64,000 bases of DNA from Lutraria lutraria (lineage: Eukaryota > Mollusca > Bivalvia > Venerida > Mactridae). The notes beneath the pieces were generated by a model. That model made no database searches. It was not told the origin of the DNA and saw only the letters and a program-made list of their open reading frames with translations. How positions within the stretch are numbered: position 1 is the stretch's first letter; every line of letters begins with the position of its first letter. Positions 4,172-51,100 of the stretch are shown here, one piece after another. The translations under genes were made by a program, and so were the position numbers. The stretch covers positions 2,807,053 through 2,871,052 of the forward strand of contig OZ026835.1 in NCBI GenBank assembly GCA_964023205.1. The letters run 5' to 3'.

Positions 4172-5745
4172 TAAAACTGCGTGTCATCCTTGGCAATGTT
4201 AGTATTGTCATAAACTGTGTGAAATCCTTGGCAATGTTAGTATTGTCATAAACTGCGTAACATCCTTGGCAATGTTAGTATTGTCATAAACTGTGTGCCA
4301 TCCTCGGCAATGTTAGTATTGTCATAAACTGCGTGCCATCCTAGCCAATGTTAGTATTGTCATAAACTGTGTGCCATCCTAGCCAATGTTAGTATTGTCA
4401 TAAACTGCGTGCCATCCTAGCCAATGTTAGTATTGTCATAAACTGCGTGCCATCCTAGCCAATGTTAGTATTGTCATAAACTGTGTGCCATCCTCGGCAA
4501 TGTTAGTATTGTCATAAACTGTGTGACATCCTTGGCAATGTTAGTATTGTCATAAACTGTGTGAAATCCTTGGCAATGTTAGTATTGTCATAAACTGCGT
4601 AACATCCTTGGCAATGTTAGTATTGTCATAAACTGTGTGAAATCCTTGGCAATGTTAGTATTGTCATAAACTGCGTGCCATCCTAGCCAATGTTAGTATT
4701 GTCATAAACTGTGTGCCATCCTCGGCAATGTTAGTATTGTCATAAACTGTGTGCCATCCTTGGCAATGTTAGTATTGTCATAAACTGTGTGACATCCTTG
4801 GCAATGTTAGTATTGTCATAAACTGCGTGTCATCCTTGGCAATGTTAGTATTGTCATAAACTGTGTGCCATCCTTGGCAATGTTAGTATTGTCATAAACT
4901 GTGTGACATCCTTGGCAATGTTAGTATTGTCATAAACTGTGTGACATCCTTGGCAATGTTAGTATTGTCATAAACTGTGTGTCATACTTGGCAATGTTAG
5001 TATTGTCATAAACTGTGTGCCATCCTTGGCAATGTTAGTATTGTCATAAACTGTGTGCCGTCCTTGGCAATGTTAGTATTGTCATAAACTGCGTGCCATC
5101 CTTGGCAATGTTAGTATTGTCATAAACTGTGTGCCATCCTTGGCAATGTTAGTATTGTCATAAACTGCTTGCCGTCTTCCGAAATGTTGGTATTGTCATA
5201 AAGTGCCTGTCGTCTTCCGCAATGTTAGTATTGTCATAAACTGCCTGTCGTCTTCCGCAATGTTAGTATTGTCATAAAGTGCTTGCCGTCTTCCACAATG
5301 TTAGTATTGTCATAAACTGTTTGCCGTCTTCAGCAATGTTAGTATTGTCATAAACTGCCTGTCGTCTTCCGCAATGTTAGTATTGTCATAAAGTGCTTGC
5401 CGTCTTCCACAATGTTAGTATTGTCATAAACTGTTTGTCGTCTTCCACAATGTTAGTATTGTCATAAAGTGCTTGCCGTCTTCCGCAATGTTAGTATTGT
5501 CATAAACTGTTTGCCGTCTTCCGCAATGTTAGTATTGTCATAAACTGCTTGCCGTCTTCCGAAATGTTGGTATTGTCATAAAGTGCCTGTCGTCTTCCGC
5601 AATGTTAGTATTGTCATAAACTGCCTGCCGTCTTCCGCAATATTAGTATTGTCATAAACTGTTTGCCGTCTTCCGCAATGTTAGTATTGTCATAAAGTGC
5701 TTGCCGTCTTCCGCAATGTTAGTATTGTCATACGCTTTGCCATCC
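4172..5745. repeat. 38-bp minisatellite, about 41 copies
   Basis: A 38-bp unit containing GGCAATGTTAGTATTGTCAT is repeated head to tail; successive copies of AGTATTGTCA start 38 bases apart (for example 4201 and 4239). Two subfamilies are segregated: units up to about 5160 carry CATCCTTGGCAATG or close variants, and later units carry CGTCTTCCGCAATG and alternate between AAACTG and AAAGTG. Decayed units trail on to about 5808. The 38-bp period is not a multiple of three, so no long frame is kept. Confidence 0.95.
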
Positions 5746-5808
5746 TCAACAATCTCAGGATTGTGATAAACTGTTCCTTCCTCGTCAGTGTCAGAATTAT
5801 CACAAAGT

Positions 5809-16750: not shown

Positions 16751-16827
16751 TCAAACATTGTAACTTTCCACCATACCAAGTTTTTACAATGACCCTGTAT
16801 GTAATACATGTAGTTGCATCAAAATGA

Positions 16828-17738
16828 AGTTCTTACAATATCGACAGGTCATTAAAATGGCGTTCTATAATACCGACAGGTCATTAAAATGGCGCTCTAA
16901 CAATATCGACAGGTCATTAAAATGGCGTTCTAACAATATCGACAGGTCATTAAAATGGCGTTCTAACAATATCGACAGGTCATTAAAATAAAGTTCTAAC
17001 AATATCGACAGGTCATTAAAATGGCGCTCTACCAATATCGACAGGTCATTAAAATGGCGTTCTAACAATATCGACAGGTCATTAAAATAAAGTTCTAACA
17101 ATATCGACAGGTCATTAAAATGGCGTTCTAACAATATCGACAGGTCATTAAAATGGCGTTCTAACAATATCGACAGGTCATTAAAATGGCGTTCTAACAA
17201 TATCGACAGGTCATTAAAATGGCGTTCTATAATACCGACAGGTCATTAAAATGGCGCTCTAACAATATCGACAGGTCATTAAAATGGCGTTCTAACAATA
17301 TCGACAGGTCATTAAAATGGCGTTCTAACAATATCGACAGGTCATTAAAATAAAGTTCTAACAATATCGACAGGTCATTAAAATGGCGCTCTACCAATAT
17401 CGACAGGTCATTAAAATGGCGTTCTAACAATATCGACAGGTCATTAAAATGGCGTTCTAACAATATCGACAGGTCAATTAAAATGGCGCTCTACCAATAT
17501 CGACAGGTCATTAAAATGGCGTTCTATAATACCGACAGGTCATTAAAATGGCGCTCTAACAATATCGACAGGTCATTAAAATGGCGTTCTAACAATATCG
17601 ACAGGTCATTAAAATAAAGTTCTAACAATATCGACAGGTCATTAAAATAAAGATCTAACAATATTAACTGGTCAGTAAATTTAGTTCTTACAATATTAAC
17701 AGGTCAGTAAATTTAGTTCTTACAATATTAACAGGTCT
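16828..17738. repeat. 33-bp minisatellite, about 27 copies
   Basis: The unit is TTCTAACAATATCGACAGG followed by TCATTAAAATGGCG. Variant units (AATAAAG, GCGCTCTACC, GCGTTCTATAATACCG) recur in the same order at 16859, 17221 and 17519, so blocks of units were duplicated together. Because 33 is a multiple of three and the unit has no stop on the minus strand, an 11-residue LERHFNDLSIL repeat is open there. A 34-bp unit at about 17470 breaks it. The final units decay (GGTCAGTAAATTTAGTTC) before 17738. Confidence 0.95.
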
Positions 17739-22047: not shown

Positions 22048-23108
22048 ATGGCTGAAGGCGCGAATAAGTTTTGTGATTTATGTTTGAAGATTAACAAGCC
22101 GGTTTTGGCGTTTATGTTTTGTTATGACTGTTCGGAAAACCTTTGTTCTGATTGCGTTGCACAACATGGAAAGTTTAAGTCAATGAGTGACCACGATCTT
22201 CACGAAATGGATAAAATTAATATGAATCTTGAAGTGGTCGCCTTGGAGCGTGATCTCCGGGAATGCCATAATCATAAATCGAAAGATATCGAGTATGTTT
22301 GTAAAGATCATAATCAGCTATGTTGTTCTGAATGTGTTATTGAGAATCACCGTAAGTGTGTGCATCTTGTAACATTGACAAATGAATGTGTAGACATAAA
22401 TAGACCTGCTGAATGCAACACATTGAAAACGCTACAAGACCTTGAAGAACGGGCCCACGGTGTCATTAAAGTTGAAACGAAGAGCCAAGAAAACGTTCAG
22501 AAATCGAAGAAATTGATCATTGCTCAACTTGAAATGCTAAAACGTCACTTTGACTTAGCACACGCTGCAATGAGACACAACGTATTAACAGATCTAGACA
22601 AAACAAGTACTAGAGTCATGGTTGAGAGTGAAACCAACATTAAAGATCTGCTAAAGGTAGTTGACGAACTAACAACAGTGAAGGTAAAGCAAAATTGATT
22701 TCTGAGCAGAGCAACCCAGTTGTTAGTTATTTGTTTGATTACAAGCACTGTAATGACGTCAGAGCATTACATTCGGTAGTATTCGAGCGTGTTGGTACTA
22801 CGCGTAATAAAGATGTCCAACTTATACAGTCTAAACCTGTGAAAGCAATATGCGATTCAATGAGCAGTTGTTTAAATGTTAGAATTGTTTCGTCGAAGTC
22901 AAAGTTACAATTTGACCCTTCAGTGGCTTCCGATTCAGATGATTCAGCCAAACCTTGTGGCTATCTGAAAAGCTTGATGAAAAACTTAAAATCGGATAGA
23001 AACATTTACTTCCATGCAGTGTTCTTCTGTTGTATTCATGTTGTCAGCAATATCGACGTGTTAACTGTAGACAGTGAGTTATCTTATTGTGCGACTACTC
23101 CAGACTGA
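22048..23108 (+). pseudogene. B-box (TRIM-like) protein gene, intronless, frameshifted
   Basis: The first frame (22048-22698, 216 codons) starts with ATG in a good context (AAAATGG). It encodes two B-box zinc fingers: B-box 1 with C9, C12, C25, C28, C33, C36 and H49/H52, and B-box 2 with C73, H76, C85, H88, C93, C96, H101 and H106. A predicted coiled coil follows at about residues 120-210. No RING precedes them. The frame stops at 22698, but the +3 frame continues the same protein (AKLISEQSNPVVSYLFDY...) from about 22680 to the stop at 23108, so one base was gained or lost near 22680. Joined length would be about 350 residues, ending without an NHL or B30.2 domain. Such B-box-only TRIM relatives are greatly expanded in bivalves and are often linked to innate immunity or ubiquitin signalling; the role here is unknown. 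The absence of introns suggests a retrocopy or a naturally single-exon family. A sequencing error could equally explain the shift. Confidence 0.75.
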
Positions 23109-26290: not shown

Positions 26291-26297
26291 TATAAAA
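26291..26297 (+). promoter_or_regulatory. TATA box of the insulin-like peptide gene
   Basis: TATAAAA, 92 bases before the ATG at 26383. A start of transcription near 26320 would leave a short 5' UTR. A GCGCATGCG site lies further up at about 26245. Inferred from position and motif only. Confidence 0.5.
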
Positions 26298-26382
26298 TGA
26301 TATGTAAATGTCATGGTGTCACTCAAGCTGATACCTCGATAACTGTCTATCGTCCAAACTGAGCACAGATTTCTTGCAAATA

Positions 26383-26566
26383 ATGTTCAGCAAAAATGGC
26401 TGGGTGCTAATGCTTACAGTTGCATTGTCTCTGTGTGGACACGTACAGGGTATACATGTAGAATGCCAGGCAATACGGCACAGCGATGTAACCGCTCACA
26501 GATTTGCAACTTGTATAAGGAATATACGAGGGATTCTTCGCTTGATGTGCTCGTTCAGTCTCCAAG
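26383..26566 (+). CDS. Insulin-like peptide, exon 1 (signal peptide and B chain)
   Basis: 184 coding bases, ending CTCCAAG/GTAAAC in phase 1. The upstream in-frame TTG at 26374 is not used as a start because ATG at 26383 begins a proper signal sequence. Reading on past the donor gives only nine more codons of unremarkable sequence before a stop. Confidence 0.75.
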
Positions 26567-29500
26567 GTAAACCTCTTTTTGTATTTTGTAAATCAAGCCA
26601 ATAATAAAGATACGCAACAGAATCTGATATGTACATAAACAAGTCCTAAATAGTAGATAGAATAATAAAATTGAACAACTGAATCGTGATGTTTATTTAG
26701 CTGAATAATAATTGCTTTTATACCTAATACTTAATAATCATCACGTAAACATTTAATCAAAAGTGTCGTCTTATAAATGTAACAAGAACTTCTCTTGGAT
26801 AAACAACTTTTTTATGCGAGGAAAATAATGTTTGTCCTGACGAACGTCTGTATGGCGGCACTTTTGGAGAGAAAATCGAGTAAATGTATTTGACTTATTC
26901 GACGATCAAAGTTAAAGATTAGATAAATAAATTAATCCGTCAATTATTAAATGATTATATAATGTCTATTGGTGTATTCAGCTGTTCCCGTTTGTGTAAC
27001 AAGTTATCTGTTTATGTGGTAAGGTAGCTAGCCTTACGCACAGCCCTCCTCTATCGACAGAGTTCATCATACGGATTCACCAGACGGTGTTAATTAGATA
27101 TCTTTTATAGCATTAAACAAATAATAATCACTGTTCACATGGTGGTCTATATTCGGAGATGGCCTCTAAAGCTGGCTTGACTGTAGTTACAGTAGATACA
27201 TGTTTATATTTTCGAAGAATATCATATTAATGTGATATGGTAATCATTTATACACTATATCATGTAAACGATTTTACACATTGCTACGCACTCATGCGCA
27301 CTCGTAAATTAACTCTTGCTCTGCGGAACTCCTGTTCGTATATAATTGATAAGATATAAAGAGAAATAATTTTTGCGTCTTAATATTTCCACTGATAATT
27401 AATTATAACTTATAAGATAAAATCCTCCCTCGCTCAAATTTGTACAGGTGGATGATACCCCTACCCTTTGAAAAATTGGACATACGCACCAAACGCTTTT
27501 AACTAGCTATTTACCATCTAGCACTTAGTTCTGAGATAACATATACCCCCTAGTACTTAGTTCTGAGATGACATTTGTCTCCTAGTATTTAATTCTGAGA
27601 TGACATTAAAACCACTAGTACTTAATTCTGAGATGACATTTGTCCTCTAGTACTTCGTTCTGAGATGACATTTAACCCCCTAGTACTTAGTTCTGAGATG
27701 ACATTTGTCCTCTAGTACTTAGTTCTGAGATGACATTTGTCCCCTAGTGCTTAGTTCTGAAATGACATTTGTCCCCTAGTACTTAGTTCTGAGATGACAG
27801 TTAACCCCCCAGCACTTAGTTCTGAGATGACATTTGTACTCTAGTACTTAATTCTGAGATGACATTTAACCTTTAGCACTTAGTTCTGAGATGACATTTG
27901 TCCTCTAGTACTTAGTTCTGAGATGACATTTGTCCCCCTAGTACTTAGTTCTGAGATGACATTTGTCCCCCTAGTAGTTAGTTCTGAGATGACATTTGTC
28001 CCCTAGTAGTTAGTTCTGAGATGACATTTATCTTCTAGTACTTAGTTCTGAGATGACATTTGTCCTCTAGTACTTAGTTCTGAGATGACATTTGTCCTCT
28101 AGTACTTAGTTCTGAGATGACATTTAACCTCTAGTACTTAGTTCTGAGATGACATTTATCCTCTAGTACTTAATTCTGAGATGACATTTAACCTCTAGTA
28201 CTTAGTTCTGAGATGACATTTATCCTCTAGTACTTAGTTCTGAGATGACATTTGTCCTCTAGTATTTAATTCTGAGATGACATTTGTCCTCTAGTACTTA
28301 ATTCTGAGATGACATTTGTCCTCTAGTACTTAGTTCTGAGATGACATTTGTCCACTAGTAGTTAGTTCTGAGATGACATTTATCCTCTAGTACTTAATTC
28401 TGAGATGACATTTATCCTCTAGTACTTAGTTCTGAGATGACATTTGTCCTCTAGTATTTAATTTTGAGATGACATTTATCTTCTAGTACTTAGTTCTGAG
28501 ATGACATTTGTCCTCTAGTACTTAGTTCTGAGATGACATTTGTCCCCTAGTAGTTAGTTCTGAGATGACATTTATCCTCTAGTACTTAGTTCTGAGATGA
28601 CATTTATCCTCTAGTACTTAGTTCTGAGATGACATTTGTCCTCTAGTACTTAGTTCTGAGATGACATTTGTCCTCTAGTACTTAATTCTGAGATGACATT
28701 TATCCTCTAGTACTTAGTTCTGAGATGACATTTGTCCTCTAGTACTTAGTTCTGAGATGACATTTGTCCTCTAGTACTTAGTTCTGAGATGACATTTGTC
28801 CCCCTAGTACTTAGTTCTGAGATGACATTTGTCCCCCTAGTACTTAGTTCTGAGATGACATTTATCCCCTAGTACTTAGTTCTGAGATGACATTTATCCT
28901 CTAGTACTTAGTTCAGAGATGACATTTATCCTCTAGTACTTAGTTCTGAGATTACCCAAAATAAGCAAAAATTCAAAATCAAGGGCAGATAATTCAAAAA
29001 CGAGATCAGTGACCACCAATTTTTGTCGCTTAAAATGATTCTTTTATCATACGCTAAGATCATGCAAAGTTTAAAAAAATCATTGATCAGTTTTAATTTT
29101 TCCTGAATGTCTATGTGAAAAATGTAGCGAACTACCGAAAACGTCTTTAAGTGTCATTTATAACAACTGTAATAAGTGCATTATAGTTTCCATCTAACAA
29201 AGCCTACTTTTACTTTGATCGTAGAGCGATTGTTTTTTAAATGTTCCAATACCAACACTTTTATTTCTAGCTACTATTTCGCGATCGTTTAAATGTGCCA
29301 TGTATAAGAAAAGGAATTAAAGACACAAAACAGAGTATCTGACCTTCCCCCTAAATACTCGCGGCCCCTTACCCCCAAATTCATCAACCCCCAGACCTAC
29401 CCAACTCATATAACCATTAAAATGATGAAGGTAAAAACACAACCTTCATGCGGAAGTGTCACACCGACTAAAGACTTTCTAAACACGTGCATAATTATCC

Positions 29501-32381
29501 TCGCTACCTCACTTAATTTACTACCTTACATAATTACGTCCATACAAAACTGGTATTTAATGCCAAAAGCTCATGACTTAATAAACATTTGTCATTGTAA
29601 CATTGTCTTGATTTATATCACCAATATTATATGTTTTATTACATGTACTATATTTGTACATGTACTATAGTGCACACTCAGTCATACACGTGCCGATTAT
29701 AACACATGGTTACATCATACGTAGCATGTCGCAAACAAGTGACATGGACTGTGTCAGATTGCCGGAAACTGGTCCAAGGTCGACAGTATGTAAAGAAGCA
29801 ATTTGCCTTGAAGCTGCATTCGGTTAATGAATGAATTGAGGCAAGATGTTTCAGACCTTGATGTCTTGATTAATCGACAGTATGAACCACGTGTACGTAC
29901 TGCTGGGGACTATTTCAAAGACATTTCTAACTGAGACATCCCTTATGTAATGAAAAATAAGTTAATTTGTAACGATTTTACTTATAATGTCAGAACCATA
30001 TGTCTGAAATTTATACCATATATGCACGACATTGAAGTGTAGAAAGTGCAGTCTTCGCTTAATTATGACTACGGAATGGGCCCCGGCTAAATTTGTGTTT
30101 TTTTTAACCAAAAGTCGAAGTGATGATCATTATTTTGAAATTACTTGTCATCGCACAAATAAATCAAAGCTCTGAAGGTTCTCATGTTGTTCGGAACTAC
30201 AAATCAGTCAAAAGTTGATTTCTATGTTGGGTGAGTTTTGGAAAACGAACGATAGTTCGCGCATGAATTTAATGCAGACATAAGTACTACGAACGCTTTT
30301 CTACACCCGCTATGCAGTTATTACAGTTGTTTCCGTTCCATGTGCTTTCAGTACTTTGATTTATGTTTCCCATTTGATCACCAAAAGTAGTTCAGCAATT
30401 AGCATAATATCATATATAGTTAACATTACCTGCCTCTTTGAATACTCAACTTATGCAAAGTGTAATACATGTATATCACACATGAAGACATGTTCAAAGA
30501 AAAAGGTTAAACGTTATAAGCATTAAATTAATCGATTGAAACTTCCCGATGAATCACTTTTTTGAATATCTGGCTGACTCACAGTTATCATCGCATCGTC
30601 CATGAATTCTAAGATGACTTGTATACGTTTACAATAGAAGCTAGGACTAAATTAGATAATACAGAACGAGAATTATGACGTCATCCTTCCTTGAATTGTG
30701 TGTACTGATAGTAATTATTGTAGTAACCCGAGGGAGAGGATTGTTTAGATTTTTTTACGAATGATTTGTATTGCTCGTTTACGATATTGCATAGCCGTAT
30801 AATTTTGACTTAAATGCACGTAATATTTGAATTTGTATTCAGCCATTAAATTGGAATATCGGAACTATATTCTTAGGCGGAAGCTAGGTTAATGGAAGCA
30901 GTTCGGTATGCAGGAAAAGTGAAAACTGAGCGATTTTTGAAATACGGTAATAACTTTATTGTTCGTACCGAACAACAAAATCTCTTGGTTTCGCCAGTCA
31001 AGTAATTGCTAAATATGCATGGATGTTCTTATGCTTTGTATGAACTAGAACTAGATGTTTAATGTAATACAAAATACCATTGTTGATTTTATACCATAAG
31101 TATATGCCATAAGTCATTTATACCTTCAGAGAGGATTTTTGTAATTCTATAAAAGAAGTCTTTTTTTCAATAATACAGACTAAATTCACAAGAGGTTAAA
31201 TTGAATTACATCACTGAATTGATAATGTAAGCGGATTAATTTATTCGCCGAATGCAAACTGTTCAATTTTTACTACACTTTTCGTCCTTCCTGGACATTT
31301 GCCCCAAAATGAAAAATGGTCTTGTAAATATTGTAAATGTACGTGAATTGTCTTTAGGGAGGGGATAAAATCAATTTGACCGGACATATTATATACTTAA
31401 TAGATTCAAAAAGAACTAAAGTTTCCGTTTAAAAATAGTATTCATTTTCATTTGTTTTGATTAGATATCTGAAGGACGTCAGTCGTCCCAAGTTTGACTT
31501 TTTCTACGACTTGATGACCTGAAATAATGTCATAATTACTGGACAACGTCTTTTTACAGAAATCAAGCAAAGCTTGTTTCTACATTGTTTACAGGACAAG
31601 ATATAAACAAGTGTATAGTTTGACACTTTTATCACTGTGGTTATGTTCATTAACGCGTGAGTTAATTGTATTGTTTTGATTGTGGTATAAAAAATAACAA
31701 TCAGTCATTCGTGTTGTTGACATGTGAATATATAATAATGGTGGTAAGACATTACACCATCAAATCAAAATAATTTACTCTAGTTTCCAGATAAAACACT
31801 TATCATTACAATACATTCAAATAAAGTTCATTTCAATAATGATATTTACTGTTAAAGTATGCCAGACTAATCTAAGTTGTAATTTATGATTTCGCCTTTA
31901 AGGCATTTTGCGACATGCTTACAATTTATAGCGTTATTTTCTATGTTGGTAACAAAATGCATAACTTTGAAGTCATTAAGCTATTCCTGTCAAATAATGA
32001 AGTATGCACGAATAGATCACGAACATCCATGATTTAATGACGTCCTTTCGAAGGGGAAATGAATGGTATTTTTTTTTTGGGGGGGGGCCTCTCCATCATT
32101 TCAATGTTTGCACTACATGTACTGTATAGAACCGCGAGGGACTATCAGTTAACCTGGTTTAACCCCGGCTTAGTCAGTATAAAACGTCGCACCTTGCTTC
32201 GAAGTCATACGAAGGACTTATATAATCAGGTATGTAAGTCCTTGGCCATACTAATTATCGATTTTTTCTGTTTTCAGGTGGCCATATACAACGTGTCTCG
32301 CGCAATGAGGTACGCGAACACCTGTTCTGTGACTGTTGTGCTCAGCGATGTTCCAGGCGGACCTTATTGTCCTTGTGCTGA
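26383..32381 (+). CDS. Insulin-related peptide (molluscan type), two coding exons
   Basis: Coding exons are 26383-26566 and 32278-32381, joined by a phase-1 intron with GTAAAC donor and TTTTCTGTTTTCAG acceptor. The product is 95 residues. Residues 1-23 form a signal peptide (hydrophobic core VLMLTVALSLC, cut after VQG). The B chain has C28, C44 and C56; C44-x11-C56 is exactly the insulin B7-B19 spacing, with hydrophobic residues at the B11, B15, B17 and B18 positions. R67-V-S-R70 is a furin-type site. The A chain contains CDCCAQRC followed by eight residues and a terminal Cys, that is C-x-CC-x3-C-x8-C, with the invariant A16 leucine (L91). The additional pair C28/C79 is the hallmark of molluscan insulin-related peptides. 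A phase-1 intron within the connecting peptide is also the ancestral insulin gene structure. Expected role: secreted hormone or growth factor acting on an insulin-type receptor tyrosine kinase. Odd points: the connecting peptide is only about 14 residues, the Gly after the B7-equivalent Cys is absent (I45), and an RR pair lies inside the A chain. An unseen middle exon is possible. Confidence 0.78.
27517..28955. repeat. 32-bp minisatellite, about 45 copies, in the insulin-like gene intron
   Basis: The unit is CTAGTACTTAGTTCTGAG plus ATGACATTTGTCCT-type sequence, period 32 with 31-34-bp variants caused by runs of C. Variant positions are GTCC/ATCC/AACC and TTAGTT/TTAATT. It sits entirely within the 5.7-kb intron 26567-32277. 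Confidence 0.96.
28956..29155 (-). repeat. Dispersed repeat, inverted copy of 61878-62095
   Basis: AAATGTAGCGAACTACCGAA followed by AACGTCTTTA at about 29120-29152 is the reverse complement of the block near 61880. The similarity continues over CATAGACAT, TTAAGCGA and GTCACTGATCTCG to GGGCAGATAA. The copy begins directly at the end of the 32-bp array. Confidence 0.75.
29156..30234. other. Intron of the insulin-like gene, unique part
   Basis: No exon could be identified. I looked for a phase-1/phase-1 exon with dibasic sites that would extend the connecting peptide and saw none with good splice sites. The 82-codon frame at 29422 (MMKVKTQPSCG...) ends in hydrophobic residues and lacks supporting signals. 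Confidence 0.35.
30235..30365 (+). repeat. Dispersed repeat copy in the insulin-like gene intron
   Basis: Matches 12180-12330 and 3475-3600 in the order of GCGCATGAATTTA, CTTTTCTACACCCGC, ATGCAG, TTCCATG and TTCAGTACTTTG. Confidence 0.55.
32278..32381 (+). CDS. Insulin-like peptide, exon 2 (cleavage site and A chain)
   Basis: The acceptor is a strong polypyrimidine tract ending TTTTCAG. Joined in phase 1, the exon encodes GGHIQRVSR, then the A chain with the C-x-CC-x3-C-x8-C signature, and the TGA stop at 32379-32381 directly after the final Cys. The longer open frame over this place (32059-32454) is a different frame without cysteine logic and is a shadow. Confidence 0.75.
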
Positions 32382-32864
32382 TCGCTCGGTAATCGCAAAA
32401 ACGAATCCTTCATTCAATACTGTTTGGACATTTCATCAACTCGACACCTTATAGCCAATATTAATGACAAAATAATATACATTATGAACTCATATGGTGT
32501 GACAGTCACGTGTCATCCTAAACATTCCGTCACCGACGCTTAGCAATCTTCTCAACGGTATGATATTGTTACAACAGTATGAAACTATAAACAAACAAAA
32601 ACAGAAATGATTAGGGATAGTAGGTAACGTGACCCCTGATTAATCAAAATAGACATGTTTACTGTTACACATCTAGCTCTTTTTGATGCCAATCCTTTTT
32701 TAAATGCAATATCTTATGTACGAAATTACTTGGGGACGAATTGTACCTCGTGCTCGAACAAAATGTTTGATAAAAAAAATATTCGAACTATTTCGACGTA
32801 TATACACTAATGTGTGGTCAAATAATGATAAACATGACTAATCTTCTTATTGGTATCAGCCTAA

Positions 32865-32870
32865 AATAAA
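32865..32870 (+). terminator. Candidate polyadenylation signal for the insulin-like gene
   Basis: AATAAA, 484 bases after the stop at 32381. It is the first canonical hexamer I noticed downstream. Position-based inference. Confidence 0.35.
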
Positions 32871-34862
32871 GGATTTTGATTTGCCTTCAGCTTCACACCT
32901 CCCACAACATCCGGGCTCCAAATTCATTTTACTTGACGCACATGACTGTTTTAGGATATAGACAGCGCTTTGTGAAACTATCAAATCTCTAAACGTCTGT
33001 GATTCTTTCTGATGAAACACGTTTTGGTGAACTTAGCTTTCAGGACAGGCAAATACAGAAATCAGATTCATAACCAATCTCAACTTCTCGGGCATTCCCG
33101 TAACTCGGACATTAGTGTAGGGTTACACATTTTTCTGGTCACGACTTTTTCAACACACTAGGCACTCGTTTTCCAGCATCATTCTTAGAATAGCAGACTT
33201 TCAAACGTGTTTATCGTTCGCGATTGATGAAATGGACAAAGTTTCCGTTGAAATAGAAAAAAGATTATTTCCATCGTTGGATTCACAGGGGTCAGCGATG
33301 ATGGAAAGTAGCCCATGAACAACACCAACAAAATGGCGACCTGCCTACTATGTCCTAAGCACTTGCCTTTCGACAAACGCCGAGATGTTCCGATTGATTC
33401 AGATCCTCACAGCCTAAATATAATGTAATGAACCTTCGTCCATACTGCGTTAAATACAATACTGTACCATATTAATGTTCACACAGAGTGGAAGTGGGAG
33501 AATATATAATTTTGAATTGTTGACATATTTTAATTTTCACATCCGCAAACGAAATTAGTGCTAAAAAGCCATATGTCATTCTTGGACTTGTAGCTAAAAA
33601 TACTGTGATAGTGCTTACGGTTTTACCGGAAAGTGAAACGTGCTGGACTTTCTACAGCGATGGTGACTCGTTTTGACGAAACCGGTCAGGTGATAAGAAC
33701 AACACTTACAGCTTACATGACATACTGTTCAGCGTGTCAGTTCTGTGTCAGCGTGTCATAAGACTAACAGCATTCTGTATTATCATACACCAGAAAGGGA
33801 AATCCAACTATTATATCTATTATCCTTAGATTTTGCCAGAAAAAGTAGTCGTGTTTACGCATGACCGACCGACAATATTTATTGACGCGGACCATCCAAA
33901 AATACGAACATGATTTGGGGACGAATCGTACATTCAAAATAGGAGATGCTTATTGAGAAAATATGAAAGAAGACTTGCGACCTTTTTTATGACCAAGTAT
34001 TCGTAAATGCGACTATTATTTCTAGCTTTAGTAATTATTAGATAATTATCATTGGGTGAATTAAATTGATACATTTCACGACCGTAAGTTTTATACGAAC
34101 TGATTTGTTCAGATTAGATTCATTTTGTGGTGTTACTTAACTCGATTAGCCGGAGGCGTAGCAACCCGATAGGGTAATTGTATTGAGTCGCGACATTACG
34201 GGAGATTAGAAATGTTATTTAATGGACATGGAAATTTGGGGAAAATATATGCATAGCATTTCGAGACCGCATATGTTTAAACATAAAGCGTACTTTGGCA
34301 TTTTATTATTGGATTTTTTTCATTCCCTAATGTTTGATTGTACCAATTCTATTATCGCATTCGGGCGGCTACGTCACTGTATTATTTATAGCAATTTTAA
34401 GTAAATCTATTTAAAAAAGTATCAGAAATTATCTCAAATACATTTTCTGGATCTGACTCCATGTTGTTTCCGTGTTTTCTCTACATTTCCATTGGTCAAC
34501 GATTTTCAAGAGACATACACCTGTTTACTGAGATCATCGGTCTTTAAGGTTTTGGGATCCTAACTCCCAATTGTTATATTGTATTTGATCAGTGCTACAA
34601 TTGTCATTATTCCAAAATGGAAGTCTATGTAATATTTTACGATTGCTCCCGAAGTTTGCTGAAGTGGACTGTCTTTAATTATATAAAAATCCATCCAGAA
34701 GGAACGCACGCTATTTCGAGCCGCACTCCCATACTGACTCTTAAAAGAGCCTTGACATTATAAGCTTAATACACTTGTCTGATTTCCACGTTGGGTCAAG
34801 AGTATACATACAACATACACTAGAAGGTTTTAATGAATCACAATGCATCTATAGGTCATTCA
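32871..34862. other. Intergenic, no gene recognised
   Basis: A minus-strand frame at 33185-33376 has a hydrophobic stretch resembling a signal peptide but starts with TTG and no in-frame ATG precedes it. Otherwise AT-rich with nothing to report. Confidence 0.4.
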
Positions 34863-41442: not shown

Positions 41443-42107
41443 ATGCCGTCACGATTTATGGAATGTGGGCCAAAGTGTAGGTCTAGGAAACATTCATATG
41501 AACTTAACTGCGCAATAAGCAAGGGGTCTTTGAATGAAATCCAGAAGTATGCAAGTGTTTGTTATAATGGTGGACAACTGAGTGATGTACATGGGAGATC
41601 AGCCCTTCATATAGCTGCAGCATGTGGGAAGACTAATGTTGTTGAATGGTTGTTGGAATCTAAGAAAGGAGATGTGACACAGAAGGATTATGAAAGTGGC
41701 TGGACGTCACTTCATCGTGCTGTGTTTTATGGCAATCTTGCCACAGCACGACTGCTTGTCCTGGTAAGTACAAATGAATCATTCAGTTATGTGTTTTGTT
41801 CCACCAAAGTTAATAATATGAAACTCAAATTATGATATATAATATGGCATTTCATTAACTTGTTATACTTGTATGAAAAATATCCTTGGTTTGATTTAAT
41901 TTTCAATTTCCTTAGCACAATGTATCCCTTTTGTATCAATTGTAGATATTAGTAAATTATTTTTGTTTGAAAATGAAACTATTTTGATTTTTGTTGGCTA
42001 TATTTTTCAGTATAAGAGTGATTTATATACTAGAGATAATGAGGGTCTTGGACCATTGGATGTTGCCATGAAGGATAGAAGTCTTTTAAATAATGTTCCT
42101 CCTCCAG
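41443..42107 (+). CDS. IBTK: IBTK exons 1-2: ankyrin repeats
   Basis: Residues 1-139. Two ankyrin repeats are clear: GRSALHIAAACGKTNVVEWL and ESGWTSLHRAVFYGNLATAR. A third continues across intron 1 as DLYTRDNEGLGPLDVAMKDR. Exon 1 (41443-41763) ends in phase 0 at GTAAGT; exon 2 (42011-42107) ends in phase 1 at GTAAAC. Confidence 0.93.
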
Positions 42108-48100: not shown

Positions 48101-51100
48101 TCAATTGGCTACCCTATATAAGTAAATATGATTGCAAAACTGCTTTAAAATCTGTTGAAACAAATCAAACATTAAAGCTGATTTTACTTTTAAATTTGTT
48201 TTTATTTCGATGTTTTCCATTTATAAAAGTAGTAATTATTTGTAACTCTGTTGTTGTTCTTCAGTTTAACAGATGTTCCTTGTGTAAGTGGTTCATTGAT
48301 GACTGATAGTTTCAGTAAACTTCTAGATGAAGCTGATGAGTATGATCTTATACATGATCTCATTCTACAGGTAAACATTTACATGATCTCATATTTCAAT
48401 CTACAGGTAAACATTTACATTATCTCAGATCTCAATCTACAGGTAAACATTTACATGATCTCATTCTACAGGTAAACATTTACATGATCTCAGATCTCAT
48501 TCTACCATTTGTAATTATACAGGTAAACATTTATAAATACAAACTACCTCTATTGGAAAGCATTAACATGATCTTATTATATTATAATAAACATTTACTT
48601 AAAATTCTTTCCACAGGTAAACATTATGTTCTCATTTATCCAGTAAAAAGTGATGAAATAACTCTTATTCAATCCTCATTTTTATGAACAGAACAACAAT
48701 TTAATCTGGCTTCTATGTATTTACATGTTATTTTCACTGATCAATTACTTATGATTCTTTTTTTGGATAAGTGTTAGTGTTTTATTATGCTGATTCTTGG
48801 AGGAAGTGTTTATGCAGTCATTATTTTAGATAAAATTTGATTAGTACAGTTGAATTGCAAATGTTAATGCCACTGGAATGTCTGAACATTTGCCGGGACT
48901 GCAAATATTTAACATTAGTAGCATTTCATTTTCAAACTTTTGTATTTCATACTTTTCAACTTTAACTGTATTTATTTTTTACCTTTTTTATGTGCTAAAT
49001 AAGTTAACTCATTGAATATGATATTTTTATTAGAAATAACTACAAAGGTAAATGTGGTGTTGTTTCATTTGAGTCATTCTTTACTTTTTGCGTCTTATTA
49101 TTGATTATTTATTTTCCACAGGTACACAACCAGAGATGGCCTGTACATAAATACATCCTAGTTAATCGTTGTGCTAACTTTCCTAGTCTTCTGGTGAATA
49201 ATGCTCAATCATTGTCAGATAGAGACATTCCAGTAATCAATATTACAAACATTCATCCACAAATCTTAGAACAGTTGTTGTTGTACGTGTACACAGATTC
49301 ATGCGATCTGCTTCGTATTGGTGCTAAATTTGAACTCAGTGATGACGGACCGCATCCCAATCATCATGAAGATATCTTTCACTTGGATTTAAATGATGCC
49401 CGTACTGACTCCAACATGAGTTCAGGCAATAAAAGAATGTCAGCTTATGAAGTTGTGACACAAGAAAAGGGAAAAAAGAAACAGTCAGTGAACAGCCAAC
49501 AGGATAAGAATGTCAATGATAATGAAAGAAATCCAATTAAACTTTTGATTGATGTTGCCAAGAAATGGGGAGTTAAAGGACTTGCAAAGAAGTATGTCCT
49601 ATATTGTTAGATCTTTTATTGATTTTTTTTAAAGTTGCACTCAAGCCTCTGTAAGTGGCCACATCCAAATAAGGGCCACCCTGTGAATAAAGGACATTCT
49701 TTTAGAAAGTGTCATTGATAACCACTATCAAACAAAAGTCAAACTTGATAGTAAATGATTTCCTTTGAATTAAGGCTAACCTTGTTCAATTTTTACCAGC
49801 CATATTAGCTCAGAAGGTAGATTGGCAGGTCCAGGGAGATCCAAATCCTGGGGCCTAAATTAAAAATATATTTGTTTGCCCTTTACCGACCCTGAATTTT
49901 AGAAGAGGGTCGGTAGGTAGGAAAAATATTTTATTTTATTTACCTAGCATGAAATTACACTTCAATCTAGAAGCATTCTATATAGTCATTTTATGTATTC
50001 TACTACCATACAACCATTTATAGTTTGTTTTAAAATCAACAATAAACATGTAATGAGTGCCTTAACACACTTTATTGTTTTCCTTCATTAATTCAAATGA
50101 TACCTACATGTACTTTAAATGTTTATCGAAAGCACTGAGTGTACATACATGTATATTTTCCCAAGTATAAAAATAAAGTTCTCCCAGATTTGCAATAAAA
50201 TCTTTTGAGTAGGCATGATTTTTTCGGGTCGGTCGGTAAAGGGCAAACATACTTAATTTTAATTTAAGCCTGGGCGTGGTACAAGTCCTCTATGCCATAA
50301 TGATTGAAGACATGGTGTCTATGGTCATAGTACCTCTACCTTTGATCTTCCTTTCGGAAAAGTTGGATACTTGTGGAGAACAAATCTTATACTGGTTCAG
50401 ACTGGGGGAAACTGTCTGTTAGTATATAAACTGTAATACTGCTGAATGCAAGCATAAAAAACAAGGAAAAATATTAATTTTTATACTTCATTCATTTAAC
50501 TATCAAAACAAATACTATCTATGTAGAAGTCATATAAATCTGTGTCTCTCTACTGACCATTGTTTTCATTGACTGCACATGTATTCAATTTGTCCCCAAC
50601 AGTAACATTTTGGTATTTGATTTTTAACTACCTGTATTTGTTGAATATTAATACAGGTTGGGATGTGTCACAATCAAGAAAGGTAGAATCTGTTCTTCTG
50701 GGAAACCAATGCCAAAACCATCAATTAGATTTGACAGGAATAAACTGAAGTAAGTGAAATAAATTATCAATGTATATGATCAATTAATCAATCAGTCAGT
50801 TGATCAGCCAACAGTCTTCATGCTAACCCACTAGCCGACAGCCCGGGGCTAGTAAATTTCTATTTGGGCTAGTGAACTTTCTAAAGATTGTGTATTCAGG
50901 CTGGTGGTAAATTGTCTATTTTCAATAGTCCATATATAGTTTGGGCTAGTGATTTTAAAACATTAGTTCAAACACTGGTCAATCAATATATCAGTCAATA
51001 ATATATCCATGTTTCACAAACACTTCTTGTTACTTTCCAGAGACTCAAAATGGGAATTATATGATGTATGTATTAAGTCTGAAGATGATAGCATCTTCCA

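Follow-up and report, generated by a model that had tools for sequence, protein, structure and literature searches.

Do two very small exons, 5.7 kb apart and neither of them a long open frame, belong to a single hormone gene that routine domain scans pass over? The question arises in a stretch of 64,000 nucleotides from the bivalve Lutraria lutraria (assembly GCA_964023205.1, contig OZ026835.1, positions 2,807,053 to 2,871,052 of the forward strand; hereafter the window), where a first-pass annotation, made from the letters alone, had proposed a cryptic insulin-related peptide gene. We consider it highly likely, from the sequence analysed here, that the locus encodes a short, divergent eight-cysteine insulin-related peptide of the molluscan type, which would be secreted and processed by furin. 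This assignment to the insulin family, which upholds the hormone gene originally proposed, is based on the layout of the cysteines, a phase-1 intron, similarity to insulins at non-cysteine positions, and conservation of the first exon in the one database relative, P0001. Most likely the gene is intact-looking and ordinary in kind, and of use chiefly as an annotation that Pfam misses.

A predicted two-exon gene for a short precursor

Rereading of the sequence reproduced the exon coordinates, splice signals, phase-1 join and 95-residue product of the first-pass annotation, and the eight cysteines, Leu at A16, RVSR site and stop straight after the last Cys were all confirmed in translation. The elements of the gene are as follows.

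26291-26296, + strand: TATAAA box, candidate promoter element; exact match to the consensus, about 90 bases 5' of the start codon
26383-26566, + strand: coding exon 1, an open frame with ATG start and phase-1 GT donor; signal peptide and B chain
26383-26451, + strand: predicted signal peptide MFSKNGWVLMLTVALSLCGHVQG; hydrophobic core by eye, putative cleavage site from the -3/-1 rule
26452-26565, + strand: B-chain region with C28, C44 and C56 (C-x15-C-x11-C); P0001 retains all three Cys and is identical at 34 of 38 residues
26567-32277, + strand: phase-1 intron of 5711 bases, GTAAAC...TTTTCAG, containing a 32-bp minisatellite
32278-32381, + strand: coding exon 2; from the remainder of the connecting segment through RVSR site and A chain to the TGA stop
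32292-32303, + strand: R-V-S-R furin-type site, residues 67-70 of the translation; predicted cleavage
32304-32378, + strand: A chain NEVREHLFCDCCAQRCSRRTLLSLC, C-x-CC-x3-C-x8-C, a pattern unique in the six-frame translation of the window
32865-32870, + strand: AATAAA polyadenylation signal, putative gene end; the sole AATAAA or ATTAAA within 32382-33100

An in-frame stop lies 5' of the ATG of exon 1, which supplies a predicted signal peptide (residues 1-23, judged by eye and by the -3/-1 rule for signal-peptide cleavage), the B chain (residues 24-61) and the first base of codon 62, and ends at the donor CAAG/GTAAAC. Exon 2 follows an acceptor, TTTTCTGTTTTCAG/GTGG, that we rate as good; the sequence directly 5' of it is TTTTTTCTGTTTTCAG. 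GC content steps up at both exons (45.7% in exon 1 and 52.9% in exon 2, against 34.1% in the intron and 34.2% in the window). Judged by these splice signals, the two exons would be joined into one 95-residue precursor, with its cysteines at positions 28, 44, 56, 79, 81, 82, 86 and 95, Leu at A16 and TGA directly after C95; given such splicing, the B core C-x11-C and the A core CC-x3-C-x8-C stand together in a single product. An additional coding exon between them was dropped as unnecessary, because the product is already as long as a scallop precursor considered below.

The minisatellite in the long intron occupies 27517-28952, with about 45 copies of its 32-bp unit. Within the 100 bases preceding exon 2 (32178-32277) are a TATAAAA at 32178, a consensus-like donor CAG/GTATGTAAG and a box, TACTAAT, resembling a branch point; they could belong to a second promoter whose transcript would have an intron of 48 bases, or just supply the acceptor with a strong branch point. 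A second promoter (TATAAAA at 32178, donor CAG/GTATGT at 32230) was dropped as a candidate, the intron being just 48 bases long and other support absent.

The cysteine pattern of the A chain is rare by chance. C-x-CC-x3-C-x8-C occurred in none of 150 order-2 Markov windows of equal length, while the simpler six-cysteine A pattern, CC-x3-C-x8-C, had a mean of 0.107 occurrences per random window. A relaxed B pattern is not rare: six matches were found in the window and about 9 kb on each side, five of them outside exon 1.

Similarity to the insulins of the same genome

Five clear insulin genes, labelled in this analysis ILP and MIPa to MIPd, were read around and among Pfam matches elsewhere in the genome and served as controls. 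The genome search with PF00049 scored six candidates and gave six exon matches at E <= 10, of which five exceeded the curated cut-off and none lay in the window; one exon was matched for each of the other insulin genes.

C4:21395776-21398299, - strand: ILP, IGF-like, six cysteines; on the contig of the window, about 18.6 Mb from the window gene
C20, 16.050 to about 16.092 Mb, from 16049797, one on the + and two on the - strand: cluster of MIPa, MIPb and MIPc (L014, L015, L017, L023)
C20, 16091535-16091684: A exon of MIPc
C10:359603-359800: MIPd (L024)

A phase-1 intron between the B and A exons was read in the DNA of ILP, MIPa, MIPb and MIPd, bearing out in four genes of the same genome the statement that this is the insulin-family gene structure; that of MIPc is deduced from translated frames. 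The window gene shares with MIPa to MIPd eight cysteines, the C-x-CC A chain (C-x-CC-x3-C-x8-C throughout), a His five residues before the B7 Cys and an extra B Cys, which is separated from B7 by 12 to 14 residues in these four and by 15 in the window gene; with MIPa, MIPb and MIPd it shares the phase-1 intron as read in splice bases. MIPa to MIPd differ from the window gene in matching PF00049, in having Gly after B7, KR sites and a Tyr that precedes the final Cys, in an A chain that opens with GIV or GVV, and in the greater length of their connecting peptides. ILP likewise has the phase-1 intron, the B and A cores and the same contig in common with the window gene, but has six cysteines, a Pfam score of 58.6 bits and coding sequence that continues past the A chain. 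The linkage within the C20 cluster has a parallel in oyster, where two MIP genes are physically linked (PMC8149454). The A-exon frame of MIPa (L002, about 1730-1965) does not end until after a long glutamine-rich tail encoded by CAA/CAG repeats, a feature that strikes us as unusual in a hormone precursor.

Against these controls, the resemblance of the window product to insulin is not confined to the cysteines, though it is a distant one, with the A chain fitting less well; that it extends beyond the cysteines follows from profile and register scores that exceed those of shuffled sequences. A profile of three same-genome insulins matched the product in hhalign with an E-value of 6.2e-5 (probability 64.7), and a profile of all five with 1.2e-5 (probability 80.9, both chains aligned), these E-values referring to a single comparison. 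In a local rerun of hhalign the product scored 34.9, whereas 60 cysteine-fixed shuffles had a mean of 18.6 and 40 free shuffles a maximum of 17.2. In the register test, a gap-free alignment is fixed by the cysteines and the remaining residues are scored against within-chain shuffles; with five insulins none of 20000 shuffles reached the observed score (0.0006 for the B chain alone), and with three insulins and pooled shuffling the value was 0.0001 (B 0.0018, A 0.015). The five insulins score far above the window gene when compared with one another.

Several results tell against an insulin assignment and are to be set beside these. The best of the 60 cysteine-fixed shuffles came near the product (33.2 vs 34.9), hhalign probabilities reach just 65-83, and the A chain alone fits less well in the register test (p 0.018). 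The joined product, and each exon alone, matched no Pfam family at E <= 10; the product does not attain the curated cut-off of PF00049, for which the joined products of ILP, MIPa and MIPb score 58.6, 37.7 and 35 bits, respectively, and a search of PDB with it gave no match. The product is also without Gly after B7, Tyr before the last Cys and KR sites. Exon 2 with its upstream frame yielded no candidate among 5.8 billion proteins, in a search that requires shared five-residue words; as no relative of exon 2 turned up, a conserved A chain and the joining of this exon to exon 1 can only be presumed. The insulin-profile check proposed with the first-pass annotation was thus answered in two ways: negatively by Pfam, and positively by a profile built from insulins of the same genome.

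Some of these observations would also suit a different arrangement, in which the B-type exon does encode part of a genuine secreted peptide under conservation, but its real partner is an exon elsewhere and the A-like exon matches by chance. The database relative covers exon 1 only, exon 2 alone having given none, the A chain is the weaker match, and an open frame of 131 aa overlaps exon 2 in another phase. The absence of the A pattern from all 150 random windows, the good acceptor of exon 2 in the right phase, its GC content, and the agreement of length and spacing with the scallop precursor (PMC5996578) make this arrangement very improbable.

Conservation of exon 1

The sole database relative of the product, P0001, matches exon 1 (E 9.6e-25; 48 of 65 aa identical), and a protein search repeated with the resulting two-row alignment recovered the same single relative and none further. 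It is a 99-residue sequence from a 1444-base contig (source lgn), and since its frame continues past the splice point it resembles exon 1 in unspliced form. Its probable source is another species, as the genome of the window holds one such locus: a genome search with the product returned two candidates, both its own exons, and showed no close paralogue, though a distant one could escape.

Compared with P0001 in protein letters only, the signal peptide is identical at 13 of 23 positions (identical or similar at 18) and the mature part at 34 of 38; past residue 61 the figure is 6 of 13, and the 5' flank, which contains a stop in the window, agrees at 17 of 25. In simulations placing an equal number of changes at random, with 5000 stop-free outcomes kept, so few differences in the mature part were uncommon (p 0.0048), as was so conservative a set of changes overall (p 0.026). 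Retention of the three mature cysteines (44% of simulations) and a stop-free outcome (5000 of 9372) were not unusual. The comparison speaks, with moderate weight, for selection acting on the hormone part.

These values bear on whether the locus could be a decaying or silent insulin pseudogene. Several insulin residues conserved elsewhere are lost from it, and its large intron carries a minisatellite; but both frames and the splice sites are intact, as is exon 1 in P0001, where conservation is mainly in the mature part, and we attach scarcely any probability to this reading.

A layout already described in scallop

An insulin-related gene is the preferred reading, and its closest described counterpart, judged by published cysteine positions, is probably Py-ISNL2 (insulin-like peptide 2), one of three insulin-like precursors of the scallop Patinopecten yessoensis published in 2018 (PMC5996578). 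In the 94 residues of Py-ISNL2, a 21-residue signal peptide is followed by B cysteines at 23, 38 and 50 and A cysteines at 75, 77, 78, 82 and 91. Both precursors (94 vs 95 residues) have three cysteines on the B side and five on the A side, with C-x11-C and C-x-CC-x3-C-x8-C, and a very short connecting segment, the last B and first A Cys being separated by 24 residues in the scallop and by 22 in the window gene. They differ in the spacing of the extra B Cys (x14 in Py-ISNL2, x15 in the window gene) and in the residues after the last Cys (three and zero, respectively). The window gene shows the motif given in PMC5996578, C-x-CC-x3-C-x8-C with an extra B Cys upstream of B7, and fits the Py-ISNL2 type in its length of about 95 residues and the shortness of its connecting peptide, its x15 spacing lying one beyond the 9-14 range stated there. 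Eight cysteines, or two extra ones, are described as a molluscan trait (PMC9221753, PMC11275868), and the accessible parts of PMC6425005, PMC4200219, PMC12965858, PMC8557429 and PMC8156652 hold nothing on the short eight-cysteine type.

The molluscan eight-cysteine assignment is therefore borne out by the scallop layout in PMC5996578, which at the same time shows that the gene is not new in kind. The surprise was oversold, a precursor of the same layout having been in print since 2018. The picture of the insulin family is unchanged. The practical consequence is that domain scans can under-count molluscan insulin hormones, Pfam finding five insulin genes in this genome and missing that in the window, and that studies of bivalve growth and reproduction have in such a ligand, short and silent in Pfam, a candidate which annotation might pass over.

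Proposed processing and the question of the receptor

The precursor would be secreted and held by three canonical disulfides (C44-C82, C56-C95 and C81-C86), with an extra inter-chain bridge, C28-C79, suggested by analogy with the cuttlefish ILP pairing proposed in PMC9221753. Furin would cut once, after RVSR, leaving a two-chain hormone whose B chain retains a short C-terminal tail; an RR pair lies inside the A chain. Because there is no KR site, release may more likely be constitutive than by way of neurosecretory granules.

Binding to the receptor kinase usually involves a Gly after B7, an A chain that opens with GIV, and a Tyr preceding the final Cys. All three are changed here, so that potency is hard to predict and an insulin-type receptor kinase is only our default guess for the receptor.

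A ligand of the relaxin or gonadulin/octinsulin type, acting through an LGR-type G-protein-coupled receptor instead of being an ordinary molluscan insulin, seems to us distinctly unlikely. The relaxin receptor cassette is R-x3-R-x2-I/V in the B chain; Arg does stand two residues after the B7 Cys, but in C44-I-R-N-I-R-G-I-L-R-L-M-C56 the cassette is not in register and the first Arg alone fits. The furin-type site would suit such a ligand, as would a contig shared with the IGF-like gene, although at 18.6 Mb this is weak evidence. The extra cysteines are placed as in the MIP genes of the same genome. Ambulacrarian octinsulins resemble the window gene in their eight cysteines and phase-1 intron but have typical KR sites (PMC8286064), a distinction drawn from published description; gonadulins are reported as poorly conserved (PMC7357564), and a literature search pairing gonadulin with bivalve found no paper. 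PMC11863921 places some molluscan precursors in a relaxin/Dilp8 clade, with long branches noted there, and reports LGR4-type receptors in molluscs but loss of the RXFP/LGR3 type.

A related and bolder proposal, also unlikely in our estimation, is that the gene represents a separate, old class of bivalve insulin, secreted constitutively after furin cleavage and with a target that is not the insulin receptor kinase but possibly an LGR. This would rest on its position apart from the MIP cluster, on its lack of the usual receptor-contact residues and of KR sites, and on its invisibility to Pfam; if true, such signalling would operate in molluscs although they reportedly lack RXFP/LGR3 through loss.

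Other features of the window

Neither Rfam, at gathering scores, nor a tRNA scan gave any match in the window. Two further minisatellites lie upstream of the gene, at 4174-5806 (38 bp, 43 copies) and 16817-17737 (33 bp, 28 copies). A B-box zinc-finger (TRIM-like) open frame of 216 aa occupies 22048-22698 and is followed by an open frame at 22695-23108; an ankyrin-repeat frame is present at 41443-41835 and a BTB/POZ frame at 49101-49610.

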